A stretch of DNA of 59,852 bases from an uncultured Pelagibacteraceae bacterium (GTDB lineage Bacteria > Pseudomonadota > Alphaproteobacteria > Pelagibacterales > Pelagibacteraceae): the NCBI GenBank assembly GCA_902521805.1, contig CABYTL010000006.1, forward strand, positions 1 to 59,852, given 5' to 3'. The position numbers were made by a program, and so were the translations under genes. Below, one piece after another: positions 36,685 through 39,421 of this stretch. The stretch's first letter is position 1. The number at the start of each line of letters is the position of its first letter. The notes below the pieces were generated by a model. It worked only from the letters and a program-made list of their open reading frames with translations. It was not told the origin of the DNA and did no database searches.

Positions 36685-37337
36685 TGAATGAGAGACAAAG
36701 AGCAAAAATTGTTCTAAAAATTTTAGAAAAAACTTACCCAAATATTAATGTACCACTAAAAAGTAGGAATGTTTTTACTTTGTTAATTTCTGTGCTTCTT
36801 TCTGCTCAATGTACTGACACAAATGTAAATAATGTTACAAAAAATATTTATCCAAAATATTCTAAGCCAAAACACTTTAGAAAATTAGGTCGAAAAAGAA
36901 TAGAAACCCTAATAAAAAAAATAGGAATTTTTCGAATCAAAGCAAAAAGTATTTATAATCTATCAAAAATATTAATTGAAAAATATGATAGTAAGGTCCC
37001 TCAAACTTTTGAGGAATTAGAAAGTTTACCTGGTGTAGGACATAAGACAGCAGGTGTAGTGATGTCTCAAGGTTTTGGACAACCTGCGTTTCCTATAGAT
37101 ACTCATATTCATAGATTGGCTCAACGGTGGGGATTAACAAATGGTAAAAATGTTACTCAAACAGAAAAAGATTTAAAAAGACTATTCCCAAAAAAAAAAT
37201 GGAATAAGCTCCATCTTCAAATTATTTATTATGGAAGGGAATATTGTAAAGCACGTAGCTGTGAAGGATTAACTTGTAAAATTTGTACTACTTGTTATCC
37301 TAATAGAAAAAAACCTTTTATTGCTAGAAAACCATAA
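36684..37337 (+). CDS. nth: endonuclease III (DNA glycosylase/AP lyase)
   Basis: Removes oxidised pyrimidines and cleaves abasic sites. It has 217 residues with the helix-hairpin-helix LPGVGHKTAGVV including catalytic Lys121, and Asp139 in FPIDTHIHRLAQR. The Fe-S loop is unusual: cysteines at 188, 193, 198, 201 and 204 rather than the standard C-x6-C-x2-C-x5-C, so cluster ligation must differ or use a different set. It overlaps dapB and the downstream kinase gene by 1 base each. Confidence 0.94.
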   Translation: MNERQRAKIVLKILEKTYPNINVPLKSRNVFTLLISVLLSAQCTDTNVNNVTKNIYPKYSKPKHFRKLGRKRIETLIKKIGIFRIKAKSIYNLSKILIEKYDSKVPQTFEELESLPGVGHKTAGVVMSQGFGQPAFPIDTHIHRLAQRWGLTNGKNVTQTEKDLKRLFPKKKWNKLHLQIIYYGREYCKARSCEGLTCKICTTCYPNRKKPFIARKP

Positions 37338-38263
37338 TGAAAATTTTAGGTATTGGGAATGCTATAGTCGATGTACTTTGCAAGGTAACAGATGATTTTT
37401 TAAACAATCATGGACTTACTAAAGGCTCAATGAAATTAATAGATGAAACAGAGTTTAAAAAATTAATATCCTTATTAAAAATTGAAGAAACTATCTCAGG
37501 AGGATCTGTTGCTAATTCTATTGTTGGACTATCTCAATTAGGTAATGAAGTTGGTTTTATAGGAAAAATTAATAATGATAAACTTGGACAAAATTACGAG
37601 GAAGGTTTGAAAAAAGAAAATGTTAATTACCTTTATAGAAAAAAAGATGAACCAATACCAACTGGTTCATGTTTGATATTAATAACACCAGACTCAGAGA
37701 GAACAATGTGTACTTTTTTAGGTATAGCTGGAAAAATTAATGACCAAGATGTAAGTGAAGAATTTATAAAAAGGGCTGATATAATTTTTCTAGAAGGTTA
37801 TTTGTGGGATGAAGGTGAACCAAAAAAAGCATTCGATAAAGCAATTAAATTTTCTAAAAAAACGGCAATGTCACTTTCAGATTCATTTTGTGTCGAAAGG
37901 CATAAAACTCATTTTCTTAACCTAGTCAAAAATAGTTTAGACATAGTTTTTGCAAATGAACAAGAAATAATATCATTAATCGACGCGAAATCATTTGAAG
38001 AGGTAATCTCATTTTCTAAAGAAATTAAAAAAAATATAATAATTACAAGAGGTGAGAATGGAGCAGTATCCATTAATAATGATCAAATATTTACGTGTAA
38101 TGCTCAAATGAATTTAAAGATTAAAGATTTGACTGGTGCTGGTGATTTGTTTGCAGCAGGATATTTACATGGAATAATAAATAATTTATCAATCAACGAA
38201 AGTTTAGTTAAAGGAACAGAATTGTCATCAAAAATAATTCAAAAAATTGGCGCTAGAATTTAA
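37337..38263 (+). CDS. PfkB-family carbohydrate/adenosine kinase
   Basis: Ribokinase-fold kinase of 308 residues. The N-terminal substrate motif is SGGSVANSIVGLSQLG and the C-terminal anion-hole/catalytic motif is DLTGAGDLFAAGYLHG. The overall pattern is closest to the adenosine kinase-like subgroup widespread in alphaproteobacteria, but ribokinase-type sugar specificity cannot be excluded. It overlaps nth by one base; its 3' end overlaps the arfA-like gene on the other strand by 11 bases. Confidence 0.88.
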   Translation: MKILGIGNAIVDVLCKVTDDFLNNHGLTKGSMKLIDETEFKKLISLLKIEETISGGSVANSIVGLSQLGNEVGFIGKINNDKLGQNYEEGLKKENVNYLYRKKDEPIPTGSCLILITPDSERTMCTFLGIAGKINDQDVSEEFIKRADIIFLEGYLWDEGEPKKAFDKAIKFSKKTAMSLSDSFCVERHKTHFLNLVKNSLDIVFANEQEIISLIDAKSFEEVISFSKEIKKNIIITRGENGAVSINNDQIFTCNAQMNLKIKDLTGAGDLFAAGYLHGIINNLSINESLVKGTELSSKIIQKIGARI

Positions 38264-38363
38264 TTTTTTTTCTTTTAAAACTTCCTCTACCCTTTTTAGG
38301 TTTTACAATTTTAGGCTTGTATCTTTTATTAAATAAGTTTTTTGCAATAGGGTTTTTTTTCAA
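38253..38363 (-). CDS. arfA: probable ArfA-type alternative ribosome-rescue factor, 36 residues
   Basis: The minus strand encodes 36 residues ending PKKGRGSFKRKKIKF, read from a TTG at 38363 to a TAG at 38253. The core VKPKKGRGSFKRKK matches the ArfA signature (KKGKGSYxRK), and the N-terminal NPIAKNLFNKRYKPK resembles the region preceding it in ArfA proteins. ArfA recruits RF2 to ribosomes stalled on nonstop mRNA. The TTG overlaps the TGA stop of the winged-helix gene (TTGA), a coupling arrangement like ATGA. It is far shorter than E. coli ArfA (72) but similar in length to its processed active form. No ATG is available. Confidence 0.62.
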   Translation of the reverse strand: MKKNPIAKNLFNKRYKPKIVKPKKGRGSFKRKKIKF

Positions 38364-38920
38364 TTTAGAAAATATCCTTTTTTATCGTATCCTATAAAAC
38401 AATTATCACTAAAATTTTTAAGAATTTTTTTTCTAATTCTGTAAATATGTGTTTCAACTGTATGGGTTTCTAAATCAATTCCATAATTCCACACATTCTT
38501 TTGAATTTCTTTTAAGCTAACTTTTTTATTAGTTTTTAAAAATAATAATAAATCACACTCTTTTTCTGTTAAATTTAAACTATTCCTATCAAAACTTATT
38601 TTTCTTGAATTCAAGTCTAAAGTATACTTGCCAATTTCAATTTTTGATTGATTATTAAATTTATTTCTTAAGAACCTTAAATTTATTTTTTCTATTAAAT
38701 CATAAATATTTAAAGGCAAATTATCTATAACAAGACAATTTTTTAATTTTTCGCTAAATTTTGTAGTCACAATTATACTATTATCATATTCTTTAAAATT
38801 CGTCTTTTGATGACTATCTTGATCAATATGATTAATTTCAAAATTTAAGTTTTCTCTTATTTCACTTAATATCTCAAATAATTTAATTGAATTATATACA
38901 AATAATACTTTTTTAGACAT
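38360..38920 (-). CDS. OmpR/PhoB-type winged-helix regulator with degenerate receiver domain
   Basis: A 186-residue protein, started at the ATG at 38920 (MSKKVLFVYN). The C-terminal winged helix (about 95-186) has LTEKECDLLLFL and the recognition helix region THTVETHIYRIRKKI of OmpR-family regulators. The N-terminal half has receiver-like length but no recognisable phospho-acceptor Asp or acidic pocket, so it is probably not controlled by phosphorylation. It is divergent from the L,D-transpeptidase gene with a 9-base spacer and coupled to the arfA-like gene. Targets are unknown. Confidence 0.75.
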   Translation of the reverse strand: MSKKVLFVYNSIKLFEILSEIRENLNFEINHIDQDSHQKTNFKEYDNSIIVTTKFSEKLKNCLVIDNLPLNIYDLIEKINLRFLRNKFNNQSKIEIGKYTLDLNSRKISFDRNSLNLTEKECDLLLFLKTNKKVSLKEIQKNVWNYGIDLETHTVETHIYRIRKKILKNFSDNCFIGYDKKGYFLN

Positions 38921-38929
38921 TATACTAAA

Positions 38930-39421
38930 ATGCAAATTATAATTAAAAATAAAGATACACTTTTATATGATGATTTTAAATTTAAATGTGTGTTGGGAAA
39001 AAAGGGGATAACATCAAAGAAAGTTGAAGGAGACAATAAAACACCCAAGGGCACATACTCATTAGGTCCTTTGTATTATAGAAAAGATAGAATTTCTAAA
39101 CCTCTAACTAAACTTAAAACAGTACAAATAAAAAAAAAATTAGGCTGGTGTGATGATATAAATAGCAGATTTTACAATCAACCAGTAAAAATCTCTTTAA
39201 AAGTAAGATTAGAAAAATTATTTTTGAGAAAAAAAAATTATGATTTATTAATTCCAATCCATTACAACTCATTTAAACCAAAAAAAAATAAAGGAAGTGC
39301 GATTTTTCTACATTTAACAAGTAATTATAAGAAAACTCAAGGCTGTATAGCTATAAAGAAAAAAGACATGTTCATCCTTCTAAAATTGATAAATAGAAAA
39401 ACAAAAATAAGAATTATTTAA
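38930..39421 (+). CDS. L,D-transpeptidase (YkuD) catalytic-domain protein
   Basis: A 163-residue protein with the YkuD active-site pattern: His128 in AIFLHLTSN and Cys139 in TQGCIAIKK, consistent with peptidoglycan 3-3 cross-linking or lipoprotein attachment. No signal peptide is visible in the first 30 residues, as in the alphaproteobacterial YkuD subgroup; export is therefore uncertain. It begins 9 bases from the divergent winged-helix gene and overlaps yggS tail-to-tail by 4 bases. Confidence 0.85.
   Translation: MQIIIKNKDTLLYDDFKFKCVLGKKGITSKKVEGDNKTPKGTYSLGPLYYRKDRISKPLTKLKTVQIKKKLGWCDDINSRFYNQPVKISLKVRLEKLFLRKKNYDLLIPIHYNSFKPKKNKGSAIFLHLTSNYKKTQGCIAIKKKDMFILLKLINRKTKIRII

Follow-up and report, generated by a model that had tools for sequence, protein, structure and literature searches.

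The window, a stretch of 59,852 nucleotides of DNA from an uncultured Pelagibacteraceae bacterium (contig CABYTL010000006.1 of assembly GCA_902521805.1) with a G+C content of 29%, contains a small arfA-like gene that is located between a gene for a winged-helix regulator and a convergent gene for a PfkB-family kinase (Table 1). This ORF had been proposed in a sequence-only reading of the window, and it was found exactly at the proposed position and with the proposed ArfA core; it lies on the minus strand, which that reading had left unstated. The start codon TTG (38363-38361) and the stop codon TGA of the winged-helix gene (38362-38360) lie within the same TTGA, resulting in a 4-nt overlap, while the 3' end with the stop codon TAG (38255-38253) overlaps the kinase CDS; both overlaps had been read correctly. 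Across the six reading frames of the window, the core motif [KR][KR]G[KR]GS[FY].R has a single occurrence, and it is absent from all 40 order-1 Markov resamples.

Table 1. Features at the arfA-like locus of the window
Feature	Position	Strand	Remarks
arfA-like gene, 36 aa, MKKNPIAKNLFNKRYKPKIVKPKKGRGSFKRKKIKF	38253..38363	-	TTG start, TAG stop; PF03889 match with 21.2 bits; dN/dS ~0.09
ArfA core PKKGRGSFKRKK, residues 22-33	38265..38300	-	equals residues 32-43 of E. coli ArfA in the ungapped alignment
TTGA, start of the arfA-like gene shared with the upstream stop codon	38360..38363	-	read in the sequence
PfkB-family kinase gene, convergent	37337..38263	+	last 11 nt overlap the 3' end of the arfA-like gene
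winged-helix regulator gene (OmpR/PhoB-type, PF00486), 186 aa from ATG	38360..38920	-	shortened receiver-like N-domain

The position behind the regulator gene was compared in 81 of 83 loci, as the contigs of the other two stop short of the upstream gene; L005 and L102 are the same gene counted twice, leaving 80 distinct genes. In 76 of the 81 loci, the arfA-like gene shares 1 to 29 nt at its start with the winged-helix gene, and in two the genes abut (78 inside or directly at the end), a count that favours overlap because the script chose the candidate start nearest to the upstream stop codon. The other three loci have gaps of 1, 14, and 63 nt. An overlap of exactly 4 nt is present in 27 loci (TTGA in 21, ATGA in 4, GTGA in 2), and an ATG start at a 20-nt overlap in 33. 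The downstream neighbour varies more than the upstream one, with a convergent gene other than PfkB in 7 of 30 loci. In g281, g282, and g283, each represented by one genome, a winged-helix gene is again directly followed by the arfA-like gene; in g281, this is a second winged-helix paralogue, and the convergent neighbour is different. In g5, the regulator is followed by a 509-codon frame, and the arfA-like gene is found about 1.5 kb downstream. As the regulator is kept across genera and the convergent neighbour varies, the regulator is the partner that stays. Of the genetic coupling to a regulator that the sequence-only reading had claimed, the tight position was borne out; a functional link may exist, as the gene order suggests.

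The regulator itself, with its shortened receiver-like domain, appears to be an atypical response regulator of the orphan type. Its predicted structure (mean pLDDT 86) resembles OmpR/PhoB response regulators, including CosR and an atypical orphan regulator, and an ETHTVETH stretch is nearly invariant across 45 aligned SAR11 relatives. A gene for a YkuD-type L,D-transpeptidase (38930-39421, plus strand) is divergent from the regulator gene, and the ATG codons of the two genes are about 10 nt apart (38920-38930). A role in defence was rejected, as neither the peptide nor the regulator had a match in PADLOC at E≤0.01.

The hidden gene suggested by the sequence-only reading is a real, conserved coding gene. 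It is present in 29 of 36 relatives of the same genus besides the window (E≤7.1e-8). Within the order, the SAR11 profile A1 matches 225 of 297 genomes at E≤0.05 and 197 at E<1e-10, the latter number including the own genome and the source genomes of A1. The remaining 28 matches are weak (21 in family f2, 7 in family f1); KKGxGS was absent from all 13 of them that were read, and four matches from g1 resemble chance. The matches from f2 were rejected as ArfA proper, as the 11 that were read have the N-terminal half and no KKGxGS. Nei-Gojobori counts on 56 close pairs yield a dN/dS of about 0.09, and so does the larger set of 2,414 pairs, in which synonymous differences are near saturation. These values were obtained with 28-codon blocks of 70 of 83 sequences, from which 13 had been dropped with a start picked too far downstream; one identical pair was skipped. 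The other five frames are interrupted by stop codons in 62, 70, 58, 14, and 70 of the 70 blocks, the own frame being open in all of them owing to the way in which the blocks were selected. Across the 30 sequences of A1, the residues N4, K8, L10, K23, K24, G25, G27, S28, and R31 are invariant.

The arfA-like gene comes and goes as a unit. Among the 80 SAR11 loci that are closest by their regulator, it is found behind the regulator in 53 and is missing there in 27, missing being defined as none within 400 nt behind the regulator. On a regulator tree constructed with a quick method, this distribution requires at least six changes, and well-supported branches force at least four. The ends of the regulator gene and the convergent gene are -4 to 19 nt apart at the 27 absent loci. 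Among the listed g1 genomes with a completeness of at least 90%, 20 lack any match. In the 17 arfA-lacking g1 genomes with a regulator match, which were read, the same ends are -4 to 6 nt apart in 16 and 35 nt apart in one. Thus, the flanking genes at the absent sites read (-4 to 35 nt) end too close to each other for a degraded copy. The sequence-only reading had named stop codons or a lost motif at homologous positions as evidence against itself; the absent sites read are clean. G446, a single contig of 1,308,759 bp, is among the genomes that lack the gene. Since g1 genomes that are at least 90% complete lack the gene and also have no ArfB, part of the genus can do without it.

The claimed homology to ArfA is carried by the family. 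The window protein alone has PF03889 as its only Pfam match, which is below the gathering cut-off of 25.5 bits and spans positions 22-41 of the 44 positions of the profile, and it matches no NCBIfam model. A search in the PDB at E≤10 retrieved six sequences, all of them ArfA, with E-values of 0.12-0.31, none of which is significant alone. All 30 members of A1 match PF03889 at E≤0.1 (best 2.6e-8), and the Pfam cut-off is exceeded by the orthologue from g5 (32.8 bits) and by a hand-typed consensus (26.4 bits). In the reverse search with the SAR11 profile, E. coli ArfA was the best of 185 ORFs in an 8-kb region with 28.2 bits, followed by an ORF with 2.0 bits, and hhalign aligned the SAR11 profile with E. 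coli ArfA over 34 ungapped columns with a probability of 90.7. Judged by these profile comparisons, the arfA-like protein is homologous to ArfA. A full-length arfA elsewhere, which would have spoken against the reading, was not found: this ORF is the sole match to PF03889 at E≤10 in the own genome (assembly 83% complete).

With an offset of +10, the SAR11 protein spans residues 11-46 of E. coli ArfA (YhdL, PF03889). Both proteins share a core that aligns collinearly and without gaps from Asn14 to Lys42 and has the pattern K.KKG(K/R)GS(F/Y).RK as well as a positively charged tail, and both are encoded in genomes that also encode tmRNA-SmpB and RF2. The decoding-centre and mRNA-tunnel motif KKGKGS(Y/F).RK is present at residues 23-32 of the SAR11 protein. 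In E. coli ArfA, residues 32-43 have been reported as the decoding-centre and mRNA-tunnel segment, and they lie within a basic stretch (31-48) that fills the mRNA tunnel; the protein tolerates truncation at Asn47, the shortest form reported as active, but not after Met40 (PMC5378476). The C-terminus of the SAR11 protein corresponds to residue 46 and falls slightly before the Asn47 truncation point. It differs from its E. coli counterpart in length (36 versus 72 codons), in the absence of residues 1-10, in a changed hydrophobic patch (L19/L24 to N/R), in the overlap of its gene with the upstream gene, and in its occurrence in Alphaproteobacteria. The normal stop codon at about the mature length, which had been claimed as a difference to E. 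coli arfA, was found as TAG at the equivalent of residue 46, and the SAR11 protein has no hydrophobic C-terminal extension. The fold of the 3' region is no better than that of shuffled sequences (z 1.04), and there are no terminator-like sites in 37900-39100. A hairpin and non-stop regulation as in E. coli were therefore rejected, and with a normal stop codon, no hairpin, and no terminator-like site, control by trans-translation of the own message is unlikely.

The half that contacts the release factor diverges from E. coli ArfA. In E. coli ArfA, Leu19, Leu24, and Phe25 have been reported to bind RF2 at Trp319, Val198, and Phe217 (PMC5378476), residues 27-30 contribute an additional strand to RF2, while the protein is inactivated by the exchange of Ala18 for Thr (PMC8012679). 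According to the ungapped alignment, Leu19, Leu24, and Phe25 correspond to Asn9, Arg14, and Tyr15 in the SAR11 protein, so that one of the three is kept, as Tyr; Ala18 corresponds to Lys8, which is invariant across A1. Leu10 is invariant and Tyr15 nearly so in the 30 sequences. The RF2 of the own genome (L207) has Trp and Phe at the positions of E. coli 319 and 217, and a conservative Ile at 198 (Val in E. coli).

The own genome encodes an alpha-type tmRNA and SmpB next to this RF2. Among 54 genomes of the order, tmRNA was found in 53 and SmpB in 53. No PF00472 frame of the size of ArfB was found in these 54 genomes, the shortest comprising 259 residues in a fragmented assembly, and RF1 was not found in the own genome (assembly 83% complete). 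The window protein is not an ArfB itself, as it has 36 residues and no GGQ, whereas ArfB has a GGQ domain and about 140 residues.

These features make it probable that the arfA-like gene encodes a minimal ArfA-type, release-factor-dependent rescue factor that would serve as a backup to tmRNA-SmpB. In the mechanism that we infer from the sequence, a ribosome would be bound after running off a truncated mRNA, with the lysine-rich tail of the protein (KPKKGKGSFKRKK across the family) inserted into the vacant mRNA tunnel. Recruitment of the release factor, which is most likely RF2, would rely on an altered N-terminal contact formed by the segment with the conserved Tyr15 and the following strand (PKIV), and the docked release factor would then hydrolyse the peptidyl-tRNA. 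Translation would be initiated by start/stop coupling directly behind the OmpR-like regulator, and the protein would be released at an ordinary stop codon, so that the operon of the regulator would determine its level, rather than trans-translation of a non-stop message of its own.

Alternatively, the protein could be an ArfA-derived tunnel binder that senses empty tunnels without recruiting a release factor and, for example, blocks or marks idle 30S subunits. This would agree with the fact that the half for the tunnel and decoding centre is best conserved, that the match of the window protein to the Pfam profile is confined to this part, and that two of the three RF2-contacting hydrophobic residues and residues 1-10 are missing. 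However, the conservation of Leu10 and Tyr15, the contact residues kept in the RF2 of the genome, and the strong constraint across the 28-codon block analysed speak against this alternative, which is unlikely. It is quite improbable as well that the protein works as ArfA but partners with RF1 or, in the manner reported for ArfT, can use either of the two factors. The patch that explains the specificity of E. coli ArfA for RF2 is largely changed, and the own ORF ends on TAG, a codon for RF1, but the stop codons vary across the 81 loci (TAA 52, TAG 23, TGA 6). Moreover, the aromatic residue at the position of Phe25 is kept, and five RF1 sequences from relatives have neither the switch-loop Trp nor a Phe at the position of 217. 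The version with either factor overlaps with the preferred release-factor-dependent rescue, and the probabilities given to the readings do not add up to one. The weakest alternative, a lysine-rich chance or antisense ORF between two overlapping genes, for which the tiny size, the TTG start, and the A-rich DNA could be put forward, has a negligible probability, as it is already refuted by the conservation data and ruled out by dN/dS, the interrupted other frames, the resampling, and the presence or absence of the gene as a unit.

The preferred ArfA-type rescue factor can be compared with ArfT and BrfA, which are reported to recruit RF1/RF2 to non-stop ribosomes (PMC6299226, PMC6881298). These proteins, which are also treated in PMC6514570, have been reported to be unrelated in sequence to ArfA (PMC6881298).

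In a sample of 385 Alphaproteobacteria, matches to A1 at E≤0.05 were obtained for 23 genomes, of which 20 lie outside SAR11. Among these 20, a KKGKGS-like core (KKGRGS, KKGKAS, RKGKGS twice, and KRGKGA) is present in five and a shortened KK-xY-RK form in nine; the other six are ambiguous. The shortened form belongs to a family with the pattern NPxAKxLR(T/S)PKY..VV..KKxY.RK (L331-L337, L048, L049, L053, L056, L057, L059-L061, L065; alignment A3), which partly coincides with DUF7230 (PF23876). It shares the N-terminal half NPxAKxLR(T/S)PKY with the SAR11 protein but differs by a 3-residue gap that removes the GKGS segment. The family resembles ArfA minus GKGS and may be another form of rescue factor. 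Comparison of A1 with A3 by hhalign resulted in a probability of 96.9 with the 3-residue gap at GKGS, a value that is biased upward because A3 was partly chosen with A1. PF23876 matches 7 of the 385 alphaproteobacterial genomes; three variants of the shortened form are under its cut-off, while the copies of G356 and G157 are over it. The window protein has no match to PF23876 at E≤10, and there is none in the own genome (G000) at E≤0.01. In the sister SAR11 groups g280 and f2, a shortened or degenerate form is found. Mutual exclusion of ArfA/DUF7230-like proteins and ArfB was not seen in the wider class, where a third PF00472 match occurs in 6 of the 22 genomes that have an ArfA/DUF7230-like match, a few of these matches being ambiguous, and in 6 of the 18 that have none; mutual replacement with ArfB outside SAR11 is therefore not claimed.

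The ArfA core is also found in phages. Gp30 of pelagiphage HTVC027P has been called ArfA (PF03889) and is reported to reach high expression in infected HTCC1062 at both early and late times (PMC12753301); with 20.2 bits, it is also under the Pfam cut-off for PF03889. It shares NPVAKE.RTPKYK..(I)IKPKKGRGSFKR with the SAR11 protein. While gp30 and some viral copies differ by N-terminal extensions, other viral copies are equally short. Apart from gp30, the core is present in HTVC034P gp63 and in an ORF of Caulobacter phage Cr30, and HTVC115P gp18 has the N-terminal half only. The ORF of Cr30 (KF301602; L344, 301-384) ends with SKRNPIAKALRSSHLQPKIVKPRKGKGSFTRKGK and coincides with no annotated gene. 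A tblastn search in phages with the phage protein as query yielded 10 mostly weak records. The motif KPKKGKGS occurs in 102 stretches of viral contigs, 75 of which have N(P/L)x(A/V) within the preceding 20 residues; a regulator signature upstream was found in none of the 102, six of which have less than 250 nt upstream to judge by.

It is possible, although doubtful, that Alphaproteobacteria and phages share a hidden, ancient, minimal branch of ArfA (NPxAKxLRxPKY followed by KPKKGKGS(F/Y).RK), with DUF7230 as a shortened sister form. SAR11 would use this branch instead of ArfB, and pelagiphages would bring along a copy of their own, also when they infect hosts from which the gene has been lost. 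In a large survey with nucleotide profiles and nhmmer, arfA was reported for none of 2,376 Alphaproteobacteria and arfB for 2,022 (PMC11633108), and neither the survey nor a review, as far as their text was available, reports an alphaproteobacterial ArfA. No description of a cellular SAR11 ArfA was found in the literature covered, which extended to neither subscription journals nor sequence databases. ArfA itself and the naming of pelagiphage gp30 as ArfA (PMC12753301) are already known, and an ArfA relative in a class for which the available text of the survey reports none (PMC11633108) is new. SAR11 genomes commonly carry ArfA-like genes (197 of the 297 genomes of the order), and no ArfB was found in 54 genomes. 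The SAR11 protein would define a near-minimal functional ArfA and would back up trans-translation in cells with a streamlined genome, and rescue factors of about 34-42 residues can escape surveys. Genomes with and without the gene would offer natural pairs for tests, and the SAR11 gene would provide a context for the ArfA of pelagiphages.

The gene order resembles that of E. coli K-12, where arfA is located behind the regulator gene zntR and overlaps the convergent gene mscL by 4 nt (zntR-arfA-mscL, L330). For E. coli, antisense cross-talk between arfA and mscL has been reported (PMC10070815), and given the similar layout, a comparable cross-talk between the arfA-like gene and pfkB might exist in SAR11.
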